A stretch of DNA of 64,000 bases from positions 1-64,000 of the forward strand of contig NZ_CP037422.1 of NCBI RefSeq assembly GCF_007748175.1, written 5' to 3'. Position numbers and translations under genes: made by a program. This DNA comes from Gimesia aquarii (GTDB lineage Bacteria; Planctomycetota; Planctomycetia; Planctomycetales; Planctomycetaceae). The first letter of the stretch is position 1. The number at the start of each line of letters is the position of its first letter. The notes beneath the pieces were generated by a model, which was not told the DNA's origin, made no database searches, and saw only the letters and a list, made by a program, of their open reading frames with translations. This document shows, piece by piece, positions 44,221 through 54,636 of this stretch.

Positions 44221-47200
44221 CTATTTTTTGAGTACGGCACTCAACTTTTCTTTCATGCCCAGCCATTTTGTATCCGAAGCGACAAGCAGACCATCAGGGC
44301 CGATAAGGAAATACGTGGGGACCGAGCTGATCGCCAGTTGGCGTGCCATGTCAGACTCGTCACCAAGGTAGTTTTGCGACCAGTTCCAACCACCTTGCTC
44401 TACGAGGGTCTTTGCTTTAGAAGAATCTTTGTCGATATTCAATCCTACGAGTGTAATCGGCTTATCTGAGAGGTGGTCTATGGTTGCTTGAATATCTGGC
44501 ATCGTCTTGAGACAGGGAACGCACCAACTTGCCCAGACATGCATCAAGACATAGCGTCCTTCCATATCTTTGATAGAATTCTCGCGCCCCGTTGTGTCTG
44601 TGAATTTATAGATCTGCATGTTCGCACCTACCCGTGGGCCGACCCGGCAGGCCACTTCAATATTTCCAATATCTTTCTTTCCCGAAGCAATATCGGATGA
44701 AGTCACGTTGATCGTGATAACCTTTTCTCCAACCGTTTCAACAAGGCACCCCGCAGGTTGTTCATATAACCTCAGCACAAGATCGTAAACGCCAGGGGGC
44801 ACTCCGCTGATATGAAGTTGGCCATCAGGTGCCAGCTTTACGAAGTAATAGGGCCGAGTTCTCAACCAATCATAACGATTTGGATCCAGGAACCAGGATG
44901 CCTGGGCAGGGCCATTTGGGTTAAAACTGAGAATCGGAAAATCTCTTGGCAGTTTGATACCACCATCACGTCGAATCAGATAATTAAGTGACCAGTTCTT
45001 ATTCAGAGCTGCTTCGCCACGGCCTGTCGCTACAACTTTGCCTGTGACGGTAGTTCCCTTTCCACCTAGAGTGAGCCTTTTATTTTCGCCCGGTTGTAGA
45101 TCGAGAGGAATTGCCTGACTCGATGTTAATGGCGAATCTCGCCAGGGGCCGAGATATGCTTGGATGCTTCCCGCGATTGGGGGTAGACGTTTGAATTCAA
45201 ACCCACCGTCTGCATCTGTAAGAGCACTATAGGAATCCTGGAATCGGGGTTCCCCCAGCTTTCCATCCCGCACTGGACGAAAATAGATCCATTGGTCTGA
45301 GACGGGTTTTCCATCTTGGAATAACCTGCCCGAAACTTTGGCCCAGGGTTGCAACTGAATCGTGCCTATTTTTTCATTTGGTTTTCGAAGCACTTCAGCG
45401 AAACCAATGTCGTGAATGACGCGAACGCGGATCGGTTCGAATGTAGCCGCCAGTTGAAATCGTCCCGCTTTTGATGTCTTGATTTGTTGTCCACTCCATT
45501 CGAGCTTGTTGTTGTTTATGTGAGGTACGATGCTAGGTGTGCCTTGGACCACGACCGCAGAGGGTACGGGTTTTCCATCCTTGTCTAGAACAAGGCCTTC
45601 ATGTGCTTTAGCTGGTTCCAGAGAAAAGTTTTGTGTAACGCGACTATCTCCCAGGGCGAACGAGTTTTCACTCATCGCCGAACGATAACCGTCGGCATCA
45701 ATTCGAATTTGGTGTCGACGATCATACATACCATCATTCAGCTCGATTTCATAAATGCCATTTTCACCTGGAACAGAGCGATTAAACGAGGTAGATAAAA
45801 ATTGGGGACGGAACACGATTACAGGAACAGCTCGAAATTCTTTGATTGGTTTTCCAGTTTCAGCGTCTGTGACTTTACCGGAAGCGATCAGGGGCGGAGC
45901 GAGTTTGATAACATGTTCTGCTTCCGTAGCAACTAGTGTCACAGTTTTTGAAGCAAGTTTCTTGGCATAAATCTCATAAGTTACAGCATCGTCGGGAGCC
46001 CAGTCCCACACATACACACCCTTCTCATCAGAATGGACGGGTATCCGAGAATTGAGAACATTGGGGTGTCGGTGATTATAAAGCGATTCTACACCGCGCC
46101 ACTTCCCCAGGCTGATCCTGGCCTTGGGAACGGGTTTTCCGTTGGAGTCCACGATCTTCAGGGTAAGGCGTTTTCCAGGCTTCATTTCGAAAGAGAGTGG
46201 TTCCATCGCTTTGGTGGCATTGACGATTTGGCGTACTGGCATAAATCCCGGAGCGACGACTGTGATGGGATGTTTTCCTGGTGGGAGCGGGATGGTTTCG
46301 AAATGTCCCTTGTTGTCGATCTCAACTTCGTGAATTGTAGAGCCATAGTAGGGCTCGTCGTGCCAGATAATTAATCCCTTTGTCACAGGGTCACCGGCGG
46401 TGTTGATGACAGTACCACGAATCGCAACACCAGGAGAGAGTACGATTTTGCCACTTCCGTCTCGCAGTAATGGTGTGGTCAATTTTTGCTGGTCCTGCAA
46501 TTCTCCCCATTCTGAATCACTAATGTAATCTTGATGTGTGAATTTGAGGCGGAATTGATAGTCTTCACCGGCGGGTTTTGCTGGTGCATTTTTAATGCTC
46601 CATTTTCCCATTTTATTTGTGATCACCGTTGTCTGTTTAGAATCGTTGTCAGTCAGATATGAACTGATGATGGATTTGGGGTTTACCGTCCACAAGGGTT
46701 CGGGAGATGTTACTTTGACGTCGACGACCACATTGGGTATAGGCTGATTATTCTTATCAACAACAGTGCCACTCAATTTGGTTCCACGTGCCAGTTGAAA
46801 TTTAAATTGCTCTGGTATCCGCTTGCCTTGGTCGTGAGTGCCCTGGGCAAAATTGACAAATTCTGAGACGTATCCTGGCTTACTAGCCCACAGTCGAAGG
46901 ATATGCAGCCGGCGTGGAATTTTGAGAGTCACGAGACCGTCAGAACTCGTAACATGGTCTGAGTTGGGTGAACGTTCCCCCTTGTAATCATCGAGATACC
47001 AGAGAGACCTGTGTAACTTGGCGCCTTTAAGTGGTTTGCCATTTTCGTCACGAATCGAAATGGTCATTGTGCGGGTTTCATCGTTCGTGCTCTCTTGTGG
47101 AGCGGCTTTGTCTACAGCTGACTTTGAGTTGTCTGGTTCGACTTTGGGTATCTCTGCCACTTCGGTTGACGTTTCGTTGTCCACGACGAGGGGATTCTGT

Positions 47201-48432
47201 GATGGTTCATCCTGAGATCGCAGGCGCATTGATCCAATGATCGCAACAACGACCATTGCCGCTACCAAAAGTCTTCGCGCTGCCTTTGGTGAAAGTGAAA
47301 TGTGACTGCGCGCAAGATCAAGGAGTGCCAAGATGCGATGTTCTACATGAGCACGATGTGACATTCCAATGGCCGTAGTGTAATTTTGATTTTGATGCTG
47401 ATAAGATCTTGCGACATCTAACAAAACATCGGCATAGTCTGTTGGTCGCTGTCCACTGGCAAGCACAAGATCATCGCAGGCCAGCTCCTGGAGCTTACGC
47501 ATTTGAAGCAGGCCAATCCAGCAAATGGGGTTAAACCAGAACAGGGTACAGACAACACCCGCGATGGATTGAGTCAGTATGTCATGTCTTTTCGCGTGTG
47601 CTAATTCATGTAACAAAACAAGTCGGCAACGCGCCGAGTTCCAAAGAACGGCATCTTTTGGCAGTAAAACAATCGTGCGAAAGATGCCAGTCACCATTGG
47701 TGATTGTGTAACGTCGAGTCTTCGTAGTTCAATACTTCGGTGGAAGCCGAGAGACTGCGCAGCGTCGGCCGCGGCGCGTGCCCACTCTTGCTTGTCAACC
47801 AGAGTGCTACGACGCAGGGTACGCGCCAGTAACCATTGAAACCAGGCAGTTCTCAACAGACAGAAAAAAATACCGCTAACCCAAACGAGGATCATGACTA
47901 GATTCCAGGAAATTACAAACGTGCCAGATTCATTTACCGTGGTGGGACGATTTTTGTTTTGCAATTCGGTTGAAATTACGGCCTCCTGTGGACGAACCGG
48001 TTCCCACTCCGATGGAGTTGGTGCAGCATGAGGAATTTGAAAATTGTGCGGATTCATCGGTTCATCAGACAGCACAGTGGTATCTCCACTGGTTGGATTT
48101 ACGATACGATTCGAATTGGCGGTGTTGCTGCTGGTCGCGGTTCCATCATAATTCAACTGAGCACCCCAGGAACGCGGCAGAATGGCTAATGACCATGAGG
48201 GTGAAAAAACAGTGATGATGGGGATCACAAGGCATCCGCAAAATGCCAACGTCCATAGTCGATGGAGTACCGCTGCGGATCGTGTTTTCATCAGGTGTGC
48301 AATGACCAGCGTTGCCATGAGTAAGACAAAACACTTGATAGACAAACCGATCAGCAGAAATGAAGCCATACCATCGGTGAATCCAAAAAGAGAAAAGTCA
48401 TCACCAGTCGTTAGGAAGAGACCGTGATTCAT
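44221..48432 (-). CDS. M56 (BlaR1/MecR1-like) peptidase fused to carboxypeptidase-regulatory repeats and a thioredoxin
   Basis: 1403 residues. Membrane segments at about 20-80, 175-205 and 383-400 enclose the zinc-protease motif HELAHAKRHD (His275-Asp284, HExxH form intact). After the last helix about eight CarboxypepD_reg-like beta-sandwich repeats follow (near 457, 554, 670, 760, 850, 947, 1035 and 1127, each with a GxVxDxxGKPV-type start). The tail is a redoxin domain with WCVPC (Trp1303-Cys1307) and a VPTYFLIGPDG cis-Pro loop. BlaR1-type proteases cleave a cognate repressor when the outer domain senses a ligand; here the outer domain is a redox-capable arm and not a penicillin sensor. AAGG eight bases upstream and a one-base gap to the BlaI gene indicate an operon. 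Confidence 0.9.
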   Translation of the reverse strand: MNHGLFLTTGDDFSLFGFTDGMASFLLIGLSIKCFVLLMATLVIAHLMKTRSAAVLHRLWTLAFCGCLVIPIITVFSPSWSLAILPRSWGAQLNYDGTATSSNTANSNRIVNPTSGDTTVLSDEPMNPHNFQIPHAAPTPSEWEPVRPQEAVISTELQNKNRPTTVNESGTFVISWNLVMILVWVSGIFFCLLRTAWFQWLLARTLRRSTLVDKQEWARAAADAAQSLGFHRSIELRRLDVTQSPMVTGIFRTIVLLPKDAVLWNSARCRLVLLHELAHAKRHDILTQSIAGVVCTLFWFNPICWIGLLQMRKLQELACDDLVLASGQRPTDYADVLLDVARSYQHQNQNYTTAIGMSHRAHVEHRILALLDLARSHISLSPKAARRLLVAAMVVVAIIGSMRLRSQDEPSQNPLVVDNETSTEVAEIPKVEPDNSKSAVDKAAPQESTNDETRTMTISIRDENGKPLKGAKLHRSLWYLDDYKGERSPNSDHVTSSDGLVTLKIPRRLHILRLWASKPGYVSEFVNFAQGTHDQGKRIPEQFKFQLARGTKLSGTVVDKNNQPIPNVVVDVKVTSPEPLWTVNPKSIISSYLTDNDSKQTTVITNKMGKWSIKNAPAKPAGEDYQFRLKFTHQDYISDSEWGELQDQQKLTTPLLRDGSGKIVLSPGVAIRGTVINTAGDPVTKGLIIWHDEPYYGSTIHEVEIDNKGHFETIPLPPGKHPITVVAPGFMPVRQIVNATKAMEPLSFEMKPGKRLTLKIVDSNGKPVPKARISLGKWRGVESLYNHRHPNVLNSRIPVHSDEKGVYVWDWAPDDAVTYEIYAKKLASKTVTLVATEAEHVIKLAPPLIASGKVTDAETGKPIKEFRAVPVIVFRPQFLSTSFNRSVPGENGIYEIELNDGMYDRRHQIRIDADGYRSAMSENSFALGDSRVTQNFSLEPAKAHEGLVLDKDGKPVPSAVVVQGTPSIVPHINNNKLEWSGQQIKTSKAGRFQLAATFEPIRVRVIHDIGFAEVLRKPNEKIGTIQLQPWAKVSGRLFQDGKPVSDQWIYFRPVRDGKLGEPRFQDSYSALTDADGGFEFKRLPPIAGSIQAYLGPWRDSPLTSSQAIPLDLQPGENKRLTLGGKGTTVTGKVVATGRGEAALNKNWSLNYLIRRDGGIKLPRDFPILSFNPNGPAQASWFLDPNRYDWLRTRPYYFVKLAPDGQLHISGVPPGVYDLVLRLYEQPAGCLVETVGEKVITINVTSSDIASGKKDIGNIEVACRVGPRVGANMQIYKFTDTTGRENSIKDMEGRYVLMHVWASWCVPCLKTMPDIQATIDHLSDKPITLVGLNIDKDSSKAKTLVEQGGWNWSQNYLGDESDMARQLAISSVPTYFLIGPDGLLVASDTKWLGMKEKLSAVLKK

Positions 48433-48433
48433 A

Positions 48434-48823
48434 TTATCTGCCTTCTTTACGGGCGCGTTTAATGGCCTGCTCTAATCGATCCAGGTCTTCTTCAGTCAGA
48501 GTTTTAGCCGAATCATCAATGAGTGCCGCTAAGGCATTGCCGGGCGACTTCGGAAAGAATGTTTCCATCACACTCCGTAGTGCAGAACGGCTGGCTGTGC
48601 GCTTGGACTTTACAGGAGAATAGATGTGCTTCACACCACTGCGATCACGGTGTACGAAGCCTTTGCGTTCAAGTTGCCCGATCATGGTTCTGACGGCTGA
48701 ATAGCTTGGAGGGTCTGTCAGTTTTTCGCGTACTTCAGCCACAGATGCCTTTTCGAGTTGATATAAAACATCCATGATTTGTTGTTCGCGTGCTGCCAAT
48801 TCGCGTTTTCTCTTCTTTTCCAT
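48434..48823 (-). CDS. BlaI/MecI/CopY-family transcriptional repressor
   Basis: 129 residues from the ATG at 48823 (a TTG four codons upstream is less likely). Winged-helix domain with REQQIMDVLYQLEKASVAEV and SYSAVRTMIGQLERKGFVHRD, the helix-turn-helix and wing of the BlaI family, and a C-terminal dimerisation part. The partner protease is the next gene. Its promoter overlaps TGTCA/TGACA repeats, which suggests autorepression. Confidence 0.92.
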   Translation of the reverse strand: MEKKRKRELAAREQQIMDVLYQLEKASVAEVREKLTDPPSYSAVRTMIGQLERKGFVHRDRSGVKHIYSPVKSKRTASRSALRSVMETFFPKSPGNALAALIDDSAKTLTEEDLDRLEQAIKRARKEGR

Positions 48824-48838
48824 CGTTTTATCCAAATG

Positions 48839-48891
48839 AGTGTCAATTCATTAACATGTGTCATTGTATTGACACTAATTTTACTTGTCAA
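48839..48891 (-). promoter_or_regulatory. Sigma-70 promoter and operator-like repeats of the BlaI/M56 operon
   Basis: On the - strand: TTGACA (48891-48886), a 17-base spacer, then TACAAT (48868-48863), a near-consensus promoter placing the transcript start about 30 bases before the ATG. AGTGTCAAT (48839-48847) and ATTGACACT (48868-48876) form a perfect 9-base inverted repeat. Further TGTCA/TGACA copies lie at 48859-48863 and 48886-48890, and one more at 48932-48936. BlaI-type dimers bind such dyads. The remaining spacer to 49256 holds nothing else I recognise. Confidence 0.7.
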
Positions 48892-49256: not shown

Positions 49257-50147
49257 GTGCTGCGAAGAAACCAAAGGTCTAACGGATTTACCCTGATTGA
49301 ATTATTAGTTGTGATTGCGATTATCGCGATCTTGATTGCATTGTTGCTTCCGGCCGTTCAACAGGCGCGAGAAGCCGCTCGTCGCAGTTCCTGTAAGAAC
49401 AATTTGAAACAGATAGGTATTGCGATGCACAACTATCACGATGTGCATAACACATTGCCTCCCGGTTATTTGGATAATGATCCCATTGCCGACACAGAAA
49501 ATCGTAATCTGCTGGGCTGGGGAACGTTCATATTACCATTCATCGAACAGTCGGCTCTGTACAATTCAATTGGGGAAGTGGGTGGTTTCGATGTCAACTG
49601 GACCTCGATTACAGAGATGACCACTGCCAGTGCCACTGTACCCACACCCTATGCCAAAGTGATTCTCAAGTCGTTCATTTGTCCCTCGGATCCGATGGGG
49701 GGTATTAATACCGATGTATTAAATTATGGAAAATCCAACTACACCGGTGTGGCCGGCAATACGTATCGAACCTCTGCCGCAGGTGTGAAACCGACAGGAA
49801 CTTTTTATGACAACTCGAGTGTCCGTTTTCGTGATATCAGAGATGGTTTAAGTAACACGATCATCATCGGTGAACGGAGCACAGAGGGAACAAAAAACGG
49901 CACCATCTGGATTGGCAATTATTCTAATGGCGCCTATTACACACAAAACGCGATTACATCACCGACGAGTGCCTACTATGGCATCAATGGGAGTGCAGGT
50001 TCCTGGAACTTTACCAGCTCGCATACAGGTGGGGCACACTTTCTCTTGGGAGATGGATCAGTTCGATTCATCAGCGAAAACATTTTTCTGGGTACCTATG
50101 GCGATCTTGGTTATATCGCTGATGGTGATGTAATCCCGGAATTTTAA
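49257..50147 (+). CDS. DUF1559 protein with prepilin-type N-terminus
   Basis: 296 residues, GTG start with GGAG eight bases before. A type IV prepilin-like signal [20 protein letters not shown] (about 10-29), then the DUF1559 opening [20 protein letters not shown] and the ending [19 protein letters not shown]. Planctomycetes carry dozens of these; they are probably processed by a prepilin peptidase and displayed on the cell surface, function unknown. Followed by a hairpin and a small lipoprotein gene. Confidence 0.93.
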
Positions 50148-50183
50148 TTCGTTGTTGCTTTCTGACGAATCAATAAGCTTGTC

Positions 50184-50224
50184 AAACAGAGTACTTCGTT
50201 CTGCTTGGGCGTTGTACTCTGTTT
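50184..50224 (+). terminator. Strong hairpin between DUF1559 gene and lipoprotein gene
   Basis: AAACAGAGTAC (50184-50194) pairs perfectly with GTACTCTGTTT (50214-50224), an 11-base stem with a 19-base loop. There is no long T-tract after it, so it may attenuate or stabilise the transcript and need not terminate it fully. Confidence 0.5.
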
Positions 50225-50266
50225 ATCCCTCGATTTCAGACACTTCACTTTACACGTTTAGGCACT

Positions 50267-50554
50267 ATGAAAAACATTGCGATTCTATTTTTTGTCACGA
50301 TCATGGTCAGTTGCAGCAGTAACGCACCCCAGGCCGAAGTCAGTCCCGGTCTGACAAAAGACCAACTTGCTCCCACACTCAAAAAGATTGCTGAAACGGG
50401 AAAATATGACACCGTTTTGGAAGACTTAACAATCGGGTTAGAAAATGCAGGTCATATGGAAGAAGCAGTCTCAGTCCAAAATTTTCCAGAACTCTCCGAT
50501 CCGGAGGATGTCAAAAAGCTCGCTTCGAAACTTGCTGACTCTCTCTCGAAATAA
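50267..50554 (+). CDS. Small lipoprotein downstream of the DUF1559 gene
   Basis: 95 residues. Signal peptide with lipobox-like VSCSS, lipidated Cys at about 16, then a charged helical body (TKDQLAPTLKKIAETGKYDT). No family is recognised. Gene order DUF1559-hairpin-lipoprotein recurs at 61889-61331 with a different lipoprotein. Confidence 0.78.
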   Translation: MKNIAILFFVTIMVSCSSNAPQAEVSPGLTKDQLAPTLKKIAETGKYDTVLEDLTIGLENAGHMEEAVSVQNFPELSDPEDVKKLASKLADSLSK

Positions 50555-50630: not shown

Positions 50631-53600
50631 CTATTCTTCGACCACAATTTCGACACCCGATAACAGGGTTCTGTCTTTGATTGCTTTGAGCTCAATGCCA
50701 AGGCTGGTAGAAGCCAGAACGCCTTTGAATTCACGAACAATGGCGCGGTTAGCACCATTGGCTTCTTTGACGACATCCAGTTCCCGGAGTACTGGTTTGC
50801 CTTGCAGGCTGACATCGAAGACACGTTTACCCGGTTGTTTCTCATCTGGTTCCAGAAAGTAGAGACGGACAGTATAGGTTTTTTCTTTTGTTGGTGTTGA
50901 AGAGAGCGTGATTTTCAGAGAAGAGGCTCCCTCAGCTCCCGAAGCGGCGACCCATTTCAGGTCGCCTTCTTCCACAAATGCCGAATGCTTGTGGAAGTAA
51001 CTTGGGCTCTTACCACTCAATTTTATCGAGACCACCGGCGATGAGCCTCCCACATTGGGATAGTCGAGCCAGAGTGTGCCGTTCTCTGCTTGTCTGTCAC
51101 CAGGAGCCCCCAGGTTAACGCCAAGTTTTTGCACTTGGTCTTTCTTTGCGTTAAGAGCCAAGGCGCTGTAACTCCAGACTTCGGATTCCGGCACGTGCGT
51201 CAGTGCCATAGAAGTGAAGAGTGAATAACCACAACTGCAACCATGGGCCATGTTGGGCGAGTTGAGTACACCGTTCGCGGGAATCAGACTGTTTCGGCAC
51301 CCGCTACGGAAACCTTCCAGCCGAGAAGTATTGGTACTGTCAATGTCACAGAATCCCGCGGAGGCCGCACGGAAGGTCATCAAGTGTGGACTGGCAATTG
51401 CATAATTACAGTGATGTCCATCCTTTGTAAATTCCCAGGGAATTGGTTTTCCGGTGATAGGATTGGTGCGGAGAATCGGTTCACCAGTTTCCAGATCGTA
51501 TGACATACCTGGACCTCTCTGATCCAGAATACGATCGTTCCAAACGATGATCTTGTCCCACAATGTTTCGGGGTGTCCGCGAAATCCTCGGCCTTTGGCG
51601 TACTTTTTCCAAAGTTCTGAGCCATCTTTGCCTCGGAACGCTGAGATACTGTCACGATTTGTGATGAGCAGCACGTCTTTCCTGTCGCTATAGGATAACC
51701 AGGTACCCACAACGTCGGTCTGGTGTTTCCATAATTCTTTCCCCGTTTTTACGTCGATGGCTTTGATGTATCGTTCTGACAGCGCTTCAGGAATTTCGCC
51801 TCGTCGCTTCCAGTCGGTATAGAGGTCTTTCAGGGCGCCATCAAAGACATAGATGCGATCGCCACTCAATGAGACCACAGGGAAACTTAAATCGGCCTTG
51901 TGTGTCCAGACAACCTTACCGGTGTGGCGATTCATCGCTACTAATTCCAGTGGTAGCTTACCGTATTTCTCGCCAATTTTTTTGGAAATTCGAAAGGCGG
52001 AGGTCAACATGAGATCTTTATGGATACGAATCCGTCCCCATTGGTCTTCGGGGTTGGGTAGTTTCATCACAGTTAACGTTTTACCGGTTGCCGGATCGAT
52101 TCGCCGGCACGTATTCTGACTGGTCACCAGATAGAGGCCGTCTTTGATAGCAATAAAATGATGGCCGACCACTTTTTTATTGTAACCTTGCCCGCGACGT
52201 CCGGGGTTATCTTCAGGTGTTTCTTCCAATGGAATTTGCCAGAGAATACGACCAGTATAGACATCGACGGCCGTTAATTTTCCGGGACCCTGCAGAAACA
52301 TGCGGCCTTCGATCACCGCCATACTGGGCCCCCAGTCATGACGATTGTAAAACAAATCTCCGTGCCCGGCAGGTCCACCGAACCAAAGTACTCCCAGCGG
52401 CGCTTTGACCAATTCATCGCGCGACATCAGCGTGTTAGATGCATCACCGTACTCGTGTGTCCAATTAGCGGCTCCGGGCAATGCACCGACACGCGACAGG
52501 AGCGCGAACCCATTTGCTCGTTTCAGGTCCGCTTGCGGTAGTTCTTTGTTGGTAACCCTTGTCGAAAGTTGAGTGTAGGCGTTGTCAGCCAACTCAAGAC
52601 ACGCTTTACCACCATAGGGGCGTAGCGATTTAAAGATCGTTTGCCAAACTTTTGAGTCTGGTGTTTTGCCAAGTATGGATAAATCCTCTGAAAGGATTAA
52701 TTCAGCCATATAGGCAGGCAGTTCAAACTTTAAAGGGTCCCCGTGATACACAACGACGCGCGATCCATAAACGCCCGCGGAATCAAATTTGGCTCGTAAT
52801 TGTTCGACTTTGGCTTTATTTGGTTCGACGGCAATGATGGTCAGCTTTGATTGCTGAATCAGTTCCTCTATCAATTGCCCGCTTCCGGTTCCCAGCACGA
52901 GGCAATACCCGTTATCGGGTTTTGTCAGTTGCATTAACTGATTGGTTTTATCAGTCCAATCATTTTGTTTCGTAGCCAACTTATGAATGTCTTTGGGGAA
53001 AGATTGCGGTTCGATCTGTTTGTCGCTGAAACAGAACAAGCCCCCTTCTTGAGTGACAACGACCAGCTTACCATTGGCGGCAATCATCGTGGCGGGTTGG
53101 CCTTTCACAGTCTGACTCCAGCTGACCGTAGCCCCTTTGCCATCCTCAGACAGATCAAGGGCAAAAACCTTGTCGGCTTGATGACCGTAGAGTCGATTAC
53201 CGGCTTTCAAATCGAGCTGCGCTGGGTGTGTTTTGATCCATTCAGCGTATTGTTCTTTCGGAATCTCATGTAACTTTTGTAGAGGTAGATTCCAAAGTTG
53301 TACAAGTACTTTTTTCGTGATGACTTTTCCGCGGCGGTCTTTCGCTTCAACAGTCTTCAGGTTCTTCAAGTCATAGGCAACGACACTCCCACCACGACCA
53401 AAATAGACGGCTTCCTCAGTCAAGACTGGATTGCGGGCAGGAACGGAGAATTCCTTTTTGGCGTCCATCCGGAATGTCGAACCGCCATGAAAAATGTATG
53501 GTCCGATTGACGAGACGTGGTAATTAGTGGCACGGCTGCCATACGAATGTGAGATAAATTGATCGGTCTTAAGGTCGAGACAGGCTGCGATGGAGCGTCC

Positions 53601-54317
53601 ACAAGGGATCAAAAGTCGATCTTGATTCTTGACAAGGTACCCCTGAGGTGTGAGATCCTTAAGCGTCTTGATTTCCGGTTGAGGTGCTTTGATTGCTTTG
53701 CCAGATTGTGCATCCAACGTGTAAAGGAAAGTTCCTTCGAAAGGCCAGACACCACAAGTGAAATAGATCTTACCGTCTGACAGTACGGCACCACCGCGGA
53801 TAGGCCAGACGGAAGAAAGTCGTTCATTTGCCAGGGCTTTGCGGTTGTTGGGAGCGGCACGAAATTTCCACCTCAGCGTGCCATCATCTGCATTGAGGCA
53901 GTAAAAGTGACCATCGTCGGCTGCAAAGTACACGTTTTTTCCGGCGACGATAGGGGCGAATCGAACGGGGCCGTTGGCATAAAAATTCCACTTCTGCTTT
54001 CCATTGGAAAGGTCAAAGGCCCTTACGGAGTCGTTCCGAGATGAGCCGACAAACAATGTCTGACCGACGATGACTGGTTCATAATGTGCGTCAAATTGAA
54101 TACGTGGATCTTCCGGCCAGGCCGGTTTGAGCGGTCCCAGATCCCGTGACCATTGCAGATGCAAGGCATCTGGTAGTTGTTCGGAAGTCACCGCCGTTCG
54201 CTGTGCATTTTTCCGCCAGGTGGGCCAGTCTTCGGCTTGTGCCGGAGCTGTGGTGACGAGAATACTCAAAAAGCAGAACCAAACAAAATGAGTCACACGC
54301 AAAACAGTAGCAGACAT
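50631..54317 (-). CDS. Exported PQQ-type beta-propeller with embedded SAM-methyltransferase and malectin-like domains
   Basis: The ATG at 54317, with GGGAG seven bases upstream, gives 1228 residues. Signal peptide, then PQQ-type blades (residues about 30-440: ADDGTLRWKFRAAP, VFALDLSEDGKGATVSW). A class I methyltransferase-like domain spans about 465-590: LVLGTGSGQ near 473-481, then AVEPNKAKVEQLRAKF. A second set of propeller blades runs to about 980, then a Cys-rich GCRNSLIPANGVLNSPNMAH and a malectin-like carbohydrate-binding domain (about 1080-1228). Such chains occur in planctomycetes; the role of a SAM-binding fold outside the cytoplasm is unexplained. Confidence 0.85.
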   Translation of the reverse strand: MSATVLRVTHFVWFCFLSILVTTAPAQAEDWPTWRKNAQRTAVTSEQLPDALHLQWSRDLGPLKPAWPEDPRIQFDAHYEPVIVGQTLFVGSSRNDSVRAFDLSNGKQKWNFYANGPVRFAPIVAGKNVYFAADDGHFYCLNADDGTLRWKFRAAPNNRKALANERLSSVWPIRGGAVLSDGKIYFTCGVWPFEGTFLYTLDAQSGKAIKAPQPEIKTLKDLTPQGYLVKNQDRLLIPCGRSIAACLDLKTDQFISHSYGSRATNYHVSSIGPYIFHGGSTFRMDAKKEFSVPARNPVLTEEAVYFGRGGSVVAYDLKNLKTVEAKDRRGKVITKKVLVQLWNLPLQKLHEIPKEQYAEWIKTHPAQLDLKAGNRLYGHQADKVFALDLSEDGKGATVSWSQTVKGQPATMIAANGKLVVVTQEGGLFCFSDKQIEPQSFPKDIHKLATKQNDWTDKTNQLMQLTKPDNGYCLVLGTGSGQLIEELIQQSKLTIIAVEPNKAKVEQLRAKFDSAGVYGSRVVVYHGDPLKFELPAYMAELILSEDLSILGKTPDSKVWQTIFKSLRPYGGKACLELADNAYTQLSTRVTNKELPQADLKRANGFALLSRVGALPGAANWTHEYGDASNTLMSRDELVKAPLGVLWFGGPAGHGDLFYNRHDWGPSMAVIEGRMFLQGPGKLTAVDVYTGRILWQIPLEETPEDNPGRRGQGYNKKVVGHHFIAIKDGLYLVTSQNTCRRIDPATGKTLTVMKLPNPEDQWGRIRIHKDLMLTSAFRISKKIGEKYGKLPLELVAMNRHTGKVVWTHKADLSFPVVSLSGDRIYVFDGALKDLYTDWKRRGEIPEALSERYIKAIDVKTGKELWKHQTDVVGTWLSYSDRKDVLLITNRDSISAFRGKDGSELWKKYAKGRGFRGHPETLWDKIIVWNDRILDQRGPGMSYDLETGEPILRTNPITGKPIPWEFTKDGHHCNYAIASPHLMTFRAASAGFCDIDSTNTSRLEGFRSGCRNSLIPANGVLNSPNMAHGCSCGYSLFTSMALTHVPESEVWSYSALALNAKKDQVQKLGVNLGAPGDRQAENGTLWLDYPNVGGSSPVVSIKLSGKSPSYFHKHSAFVEEGDLKWVAASGAEGASSLKITLSSTPTKEKTYTVRLYFLEPDEKQPGKRVFDVSLQGKPVLRELDVVKEANGANRAIVREFKGVLASTSLGIELKAIKDRTLLSGVEIVVEE

Positions 54318-54636
54318 GCACAAACTCCCTTGAAGAAATGATTCGGTCTGTCAATTTTTATAGCAGTTTGAAATACACACGGTGGGAATGCGGTTGAAAT
54401 CGTGGAATTTAAAGCCTGATTAGATCATTACCAATCAGTGACCTCTGATATCTTAGACTACCTGACAAAGAACTGTTTTAACAGGGAAGTTTGCCAACTT
54501 AATCATAAATTCATGAGCGCAGGCAACCCCAATCGTCTCGCCAGTTTTGAGCATCATCAAAATGATGAATTTGGTCTGTTGTTTTCTGAGTCATCCTGAA
54601 AAGTTGCCAGCACAAGACGACAGATTCGACAATCGT
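54318..54636. other. Spacer between two propeller genes
   Basis: No gene. A short CATCATCAAAATGATG hairpin lies near 54550. No promoter was recognised with confidence. Confidence 0.4.

Follow-up and report, generated by a model that had tools for sequence, protein, structure and literature searches.

Which genes does a BlaI repressor serve when the M56 protease beside it carries a long arm ending in a thioredoxin domain, and what would such an arm do? The question is raised by the first 64,000 nucleotides of contig NZ_CP037422.1 of the planctomycete Gimesia aquarii (the whole stretch analyzed, hereafter the window), which encode such a pair. The known role of BlaR1/BlaI is antibiotic sensing, and an earlier note on the window had suggested a membrane system that reports extracytoplasmic thiol/disulfide state, or a bound partner, to a transcription repressor. 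We tentatively favor another answer, namely that BlaI and M56 form a closed control loop to which the exported protein under their control is fused. As judged from sequence, the main target of BlaI seems to be its own operon, and the operator evidence points to loops that are self-contained rather than to a redox sensor in charge of a regulon.

The gene pair and its outer arm

Both genes lie on the minus strand (Table 1), with blaI upstream and a single nucleotide between its stop codon and the m56 ATG, and the open reading frames (ORFs), coordinates and motifs agree with the earlier description of a BlaI repressor paired with an M56 protease that carries a thioredoxin arm. The repressor, which would be lengthened to 133 amino acids by an alternative TTG start at 48835, matches the Penicillinase_R winged helix of Pfam (93.6 bits, cut-off 22.6, E 1.3e-26) and has MecI among its PDB relatives (1sd6/1okr, E 0.0025). 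It is 99% identical in the relative G038, with a ratio of nonsynonymous to synonymous substitution rates (dN/dS) of 0.025. A PADLOC CARF-protein model that covered residues 7-69 (26 bits) was taken as winged-helix similarity and a defence role for BlaI was rejected; the M56 protein matched no PADLOC model.

Peptidase_M56 (PF05569) covers residues 137-369 of the second protein (111.6 bits, cut-off 31, E 5e-32), and the closest PDB structure of the protease part is BlaR1 (8exs, E 5e-6). The motif is intact, as the earlier note had read it: HELAH stands at 275, the downstream Glu, Asp and Arg are all kept, and H275, E276, H279, E316, D320 and R366 do not vary across the 14 aligned M56 proteins. 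Glu316 is spaced much like Glu242 of BlaR1. The spacing of the set is similar to that of His201/His205, Asp246 and Arg294, residues named in a part of the BlaR1 cryo-EM paper (PMC9834060).

Hydropathy predicts helices at residues 14-32, 59-77, 178-196 and 384-402. The first barely reaches the threshold (1.50) and has its counterpart at 30-48 in G038, and an extra hydrophobic stretch (290-308) falls inside the protease domain. Given that the cytosol-side loops are positive (+3, +2, +3) and that the segment past the last helix has a charge of -6, the arm is predicted to lie outside in an N-out/C-out layout like that of BlaR1, which agrees with the earlier claim of a membrane-inserted protein with its thioredoxin outside.

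Within the arm, CarboxypepD_reg matches at E 5e-29. When the stalk is split into eight segments, six match this model, four of them weakly (E 0.003-0.03), and the first and last give weak matches to sandwich models alone; the earlier count of about eight repeats is thus fair as an estimate, but not as an exact number. The terminal domain matches AhpC-TSA on the full protein (residues 1273-1384, E 1e-10), and its best PDB matches are 2lja (E 1.4e-12), 3fkf, ResA (4nmu, E 5e-12) and TlpA (1jfu). By sequence comparison it is a thioredoxin-family domain with WCxxC and cis-Pro, WCxPC is kept in G038, G047, G119, G136, G146 and G076, and the arm is presumably an active oxidoreductase. It shares with ResA, TlpA and StoA the domain family, WCxPC and a predicted extracytoplasmic location; unlike them, it ends a long stalk on a protease, and its NCBIfam scores lie far under the cut-offs (TlpA, 58.8 versus 230; ResA, 53.5 versus 170).

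The pair resembles BlaI-BlaR1 and MecI-MecR1 of Staphylococcus and Bacillus in joining a repressor to an M56 protease, in its catalytic residues and their spacing, in the predicted four-helix N-out/C-out layout and in the dyads over the promoter. It differs in that no class D-like penicillin-binding (beta-lactam sensor) domain was matched by Pfam in the M56 protein, and in that no beta-lactamase or PBP2a gene adjoins the pair. The generic NCBIfam blaR1 model aligns only with residues 177-407, the protease region (106.5 bits, cut-off 400).

Table 1. Features of the BlaI-M56 pair and its promoter, in window coordinates
Feature	Position	Strand	Remarks
BlaI/MecI/CopY-family repressor	48434..48823	-	129 aa from ATG; Penicillinase_R
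M56 (BlaR1-type) membrane protease with CarboxypepD-type repeats and C-terminal thioredoxin	44221..48432	-	1403 aa
Catalytic set HELAH 275-279, Glu316, Asp320, Arg366	47335..47610	-	unchanged across 14 M56 proteins
Outer stalk, about eight carboxypeptidase-regulatory-like beta-sandwich repeats	44647..47115	-	aa 440-1262
ResA/TlpA-like thioredoxin domain	44224..44634	-	aa 1267-1403; AhpC-TSA E 5e-12 on slice
WCVPC active-site motif	44512..44526	-	aa 1303-1307; Cys1304/Cys1307
Sigma70-like promoter TTGACA-N17-TACAAT	48863..48891	-	hexamers nearly kept in G038, G047
Candidate operator array, four alternating half-sites TGTCAAT/ATTGACA, 9-bp steps	48841..48874	.	overlaps -10

Operators in the window and in the genome

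At the level of sequence pattern, the promoter with overlapping dyads described earlier is present, and its dyad array is conserved in G038 and G047. An exact TTGACA-N17-TAYAAT occurs once in the 64 kb, at the blaI promoter (0.01 expected), and the 600-base region around this promoter holds 2 promoter-like sites versus 1.8 expected. The four-half-site array has 2 mismatches to a consensus that was derived from the window and a relative's promoter (0 expected in shuffles), and the window promoter, scored by itself for a generic pair of dyads, does not reach significance (p 0.11). The stronger operator evidence, above such single-promoter scores, is conservation in other genomes: the operator stretch is identical at 50/56 bases in G038 and at 41/56 in G047 (Fuerstiella sp., on the contig of locus L085), where the best of 60 base shuffles reached 31, and the flanks have diverged in these comparisons.

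The 7.2-Mb genome (G000) contains 11 BlaI and 11 M56 genes, all of them as adjacent pairs, and the arms of the pairs outside the window (L024 to L033) vary. HEAT repeats (L026), PD40/WD40 (L027, L030), CarboxypepD (L032) and DUF1559 (L033) were assigned, together with matches below cut-off to a secretin (L025) and, at the C-terminus of L028, to AhpC-TSA (19.4 versus 26 bits, without CxxC); no domain was assigned to the arms of L024, L029 and L031. Among the eleven M56 proteins, CxxC occurs in the window protein only. As for L033 (6945-9845), its protease ends in DUF1559 (SBP_bac_10), the family of the free-standing prepilin-like gene beside the window BlaI.

All eleven BlaI promoters have a TTGAC at most 150 nt from the start (13% of shuffles), and plain BlaI-like dyads, in six different words, can be seen by eye in eight; L028, L031 and L033 are ambiguous. 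Since L024 and L032 have a common operator word, as do L026 and L029, cross-regulation is possible within each couple. When 68 BlaI promoters were scored (the 11 of this genome and 57 from a wider phylum sample), the two-dyad score gave p < 0.05 in 25, with about 3 expected.

To look for further sites, the genome was scanned with two dyad patterns, allowing up to 2 mismatches and using reversed patterns as controls. This gave 53 sites versus 11 in the control for the first pattern and 42 versus 17 for the second; 50 of the 53 and all 42 were listed (92 in total). No second four-half-site array was found among the matches listed, in which only own-promoter sites lie within 100 bp of each other. 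The four other one-mismatch TGTCAAT dyads are all inside frames, and 7/44 of the two-mismatch first-pattern sites among the matches listed are outside called frames (4/40 plus 3/4), with a non-coding share of 14.5% in the regions around 40 of those sites. For the second pattern, 18 of the 41 other sites were checked and 2 are outside frames. Among the sites checked, dyads outside frames thus occur at about the background rate, and there is therefore no intergenic excess. The operator words of six other pairs (all except L025, L028, L031 and L033) were searched as exact words, and every exact site belongs to a BlaI promoter: three for ACGACANNTGTCGT (L024, L032), one for ACTACANNTGTAGT (L027), two for CTAATTAATTAG (L029 and L026) and two for ACGAAAGAATTCGT (L030). 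Allowing 1 mismatch, ACGAAAGAATTCGT has three further sites, all inside frames.

The arm with and without the protease

A search of 170 genomes of the family with the arm returned 11 whole-arm matches running through the thioredoxin, and one partial match (G159). The arm is fused to M56 in four (G000, G038, G047 and G096 C20), and G038 and G047 have a BlaI-M56 pair with the same arm, the recurrence beside BlaI in other planctomycetes that the earlier note had proposed looking for. It is free-standing in six: G119, G136, G146, G076, G096 C19 (G096a) and G140. The match in G152 (same contig as L084) starts at a contig edge and was counted neither as fused nor as free. The free arms have the same domains as the window arm (42-65% identity over about 960 aa) and N-termini that look like signals or are hydrophobic, least clearly in G146; they differ in having no protease domain, no adjacent BlaI in any of the six relatives and no window-type dyad upstream (6/6). 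The best BlaI in G119, G136 and G146 is 48% identical and located elsewhere in the genome. WCxPC is found in 4/6 free arms, with SCSTC in G140 and no motif in G096a. Judging by dN/dS (0.12 for window-G038, 0.11 for G119-G136 and 0.07 for window-G119, where dS is saturated), the thioredoxin is under purifying selection both fused and free. Besides M56, no gene beside BlaI is common to the window, G038 and G047.

Fission by truncation was considered as the origin of the free arms and not adopted, although either direction may apply. Compared with the fourth helix of the window protein, the G119 N-terminus scored 46, above all 68 control helices (maximum 40), but it looks like an ordinary signal peptide; G136 resembles the helix weakly (3/68 controls equal), and G146 and G076 show no resemblance. 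The arm tree, whose outgroups (L156, L157, L209) were taken from the M56-based sample below, needs 2 changes, with key forks at 90/100 and 86/97 that are not starred, and does not settle fusion versus fission.

For a wider view, M56 was searched across the phylum (118 genomes), and 60 genes were sampled from the matches listed: all 52 listed rows from other genera whose frame is 780 aa or longer, and 8 from G076. In the stretches fetched, BlaI is upstream in 56/60 loci, in 55 within 250 nt. CarboxypepD_reg occurs on 14/60 arms and thioredoxin-like tails on three: L157 and L209, both with WCGPC, and L156, where AhpC-TSA is below cut-off and CxxC is missing. The arm searches added two BlaI-linked proteins. 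L087, from a Pirellulaceae metagenome-assembled genome, has a CarboxypepD stalk, a Thioredoxin_8 match barely above cut-off on the slice and one motif Cys, while L083 (6125-10006, in G030) has CarboxypepD, a mid-arm thioredoxin-like domain without CxxC (AhpC-TSA, 45.8 bits) and then a weak NHL match. Altogether, CxxC is kept in 5/10 thioredoxin-like M56 proteins (window, G038, G047, L157, L209) and missing in five (G096b, L156, L087, L083, L028). When 75 protease domains were placed on a tree, nine with a thioredoxin (L083 was left out) and 66 others, the thioredoxin label needs 7 changes, and well-supported branches force at least 5 of these. Of 500 label shuffles, 16 were as low as 7, which is expected from the near-copies in the window, G038 and G047. 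These changes may be gains or losses, and we read them as thioredoxin-like tails having probably joined M56 proteases repeatedly.

Several neighboring features were also recorded. In the window, the DUF1559 prepilin-like gene and a small ORF (49257-50554) separate BlaI from a PQQ-repeat gene; in G038 (L069, 11272-11578), these two are missing and about 300 bases alone lie between. The PQQ-propeller/malectin protein (50631-54323) has a weak methyltransferase-like stretch (RrnaAD, 477-567, E 0.003) amid its propeller parts. Downstream of the free arm of G119 (L070, 10432-13108) are a PadR regulator, a 325-aa protein and a hydrolase; the 325-aa protein has a CarboxypepD match slightly below cut-off, and similar-sized neighbors are present in G136 and G076. 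In G076 C1, at about 70-73 kb (L075, 4722-8394), a BlaI-linked M56 homologue is spread over two overlapping frames (-3, -1; tblastn) and reads as a frameshifted or broken copy.

A proposed closed loop and alternative readings

The model that we tentatively favor starts from the gene pair, its catalytic residues and predicted topology, the conserved operator, the lack of a second array among the matches listed and the free arms, and adds BlaI binding, BlaI cleavage and a signal, all of which we infer. BlaI on four half-sites over its own -10 would repress only the blaI-m56 operon. The M56 protein would be a BlaR1-type zinc protease with a four-helix anchor, holding the stalk and a ResA/TlpA-like thiol oxidoreductase outside the cytoplasm. 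A change in the state of the arm (a partner or substrate bound, or the active-site disulfide made or reduced) would make the cytosolic protease cleave BlaI, and more BlaI and M56-arm would be produced until the state was restored. The output would be the amount of arm, which would be both sensor and effector. Since the same arm occurs unfused in six relatives, it probably has work of its own; given such work, and a BlaI whose main target seems to be its own operon, the most economical model is a pair that tunes the abundance of the protein tethered to it. Thiol chemistry is plausible in the window lineage because WCxPC and cis-Pro are kept, so redox gating of the window protein is possible; thiol state, a bound partner and tension are all candidate triggers.

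Alternatively, the thioredoxin fold could be a binding module, the arm docking to a glycan or to a partner in the envelope and relaying occupancy or tension to the protease, with thiol chemistry incidental. The five of ten thioredoxin-like M56 proteins without CxxC would fit, as would the HEAT, PD40/WD40, secretin-like (below cut-off) and DUF1559 arms on the same kind of protease in this genome and the CarboxypepD repeats on 14/60 sampled arms. However, the full WCxPC and cis-Pro in the window lineage, at a dN/dS of about 0.1, speak against it, and we regard it as somewhat unlikely.

An arm dedicated to thiol/disulfide sensing, whose redox state drives M56 cleavage of a BlaI controlling a redox-response regulon, is unlikely. 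WCxPC and cis-Pro are kept in the window, G038 and G047, WCGPC is present in L157 and L209, and ResA and TlpA are among the closest solved relatives of the domain. Against this, CxxC is missing in half of the ten proteins, and because 4/6 free-standing arms keep WCxPC too, its conservation says nothing for signaling. No operator of such a regulon was found in the genome; a redox regulon was rejected in view of the lack of a second array among the matches listed and of intergenic enrichment. The missing CxxC, the unfused arms in six relatives and the lack of a second promoter-type operator copy among the matches listed together lead us away from reading the pair as a thiol/disulfide sensor whose repressor controls other genes.

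Several points weigh against the closed loop. The excess of dyads over the reversed controls (5x and 2.5x), mostly within genes, is unexplained, and the dyad sites were only partly checked for frame location. As the operator words were taken from the promoters themselves, degenerate targets are beyond the reach of the exact searches. Within the window, a weaker plus-strand promoter-like site overlaps the operator, and the divergent DUF1559 gene (49257, plus strand) uses the same intergenic region as blaI; in G038 that gene is absent beside BlaI. Moreover, G119, G136, G146 and G076 have a different BlaI-M56 pair at a distance of about 6-13 kb from the free arm, and these arms may thus be under BlaI control, although in three of these genomes a search ahead of the arm for the operator words of that pair found none (at least 5/16 mismatches). 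The dyad excess, the DUF1559 gene and the plus-strand site would also fit a BlaI/M56 that controlled neighboring or scattered genes via sites too degenerate for the patterns used. We consider this quite unlikely, since most of the dyads checked fall within coding frames, roughly as the background predicts, BlaI has no neighbor other than M56 common to the window, G038 and G047, and a BlaI of Clostridium thermocellum was concluded, in a section of PMC8457756, to need two dyads. Finally, a chiefly structural or enzymatic exported protein, fused or free, whose M56/BlaI part no longer signals is highly improbable: free-standing arms do exist without M56/BlaI, but the catalytic residues are intact, the BlaI dN/dS is 0.025 and the operator is conserved.

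The closed loop is also not new in kind, because a single-operon BlaI has already been described. According to a section of the same study, two BlaI proteins of C. thermocellum were concluded to require two inverted-repeat pairs (four protomers), and one of them, BlaI_1845, to control a single operon, its own (PMC8457756). The window pair is alike in its four-protomer operator and self-controlled single-operon regulon, both predicted here; the BlaI_1845 operon differs in having extra response genes, and a thioredoxin arm is not mentioned in section 25 of that paper (PMC8457756). What is new here is the repetition of the loop in one genome with exchangeable arms and, across the window, G038 and G047, the lack of a shared gene beyond BlaI-M56. 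In open-licence PubMed Central full text, we recognized no description of planctomycete BlaI/M56 pairs or of a thioredoxin-armed BlaR1.

The eight pairs with plain dyads have at least six different operator words between them. It is possible, and we propose it with less confidence than the reading of the window pair, that BlaI/M56 has turned in planctomycetes into a closed-loop controller of expression that can be moved from protein to protein: every pair would have operator sites in its own promoter and a different exported protein as its fusion partner, whose state the protease reads to set its own abundance. If so, the eleven pairs would work in parallel as homeostats of surface proteins instead of serving regulons as sensors, and antibiotic-sensor machinery would have been reused many times per cell, with exchangeable arms and largely separate operators. 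This would be a common planctomycete signaling layout, not described in the literature searched, and would provide a set of modular membrane protease switches, in which the arm, fused in some relatives and free in others, would be a natural experiment on its role without signaling.

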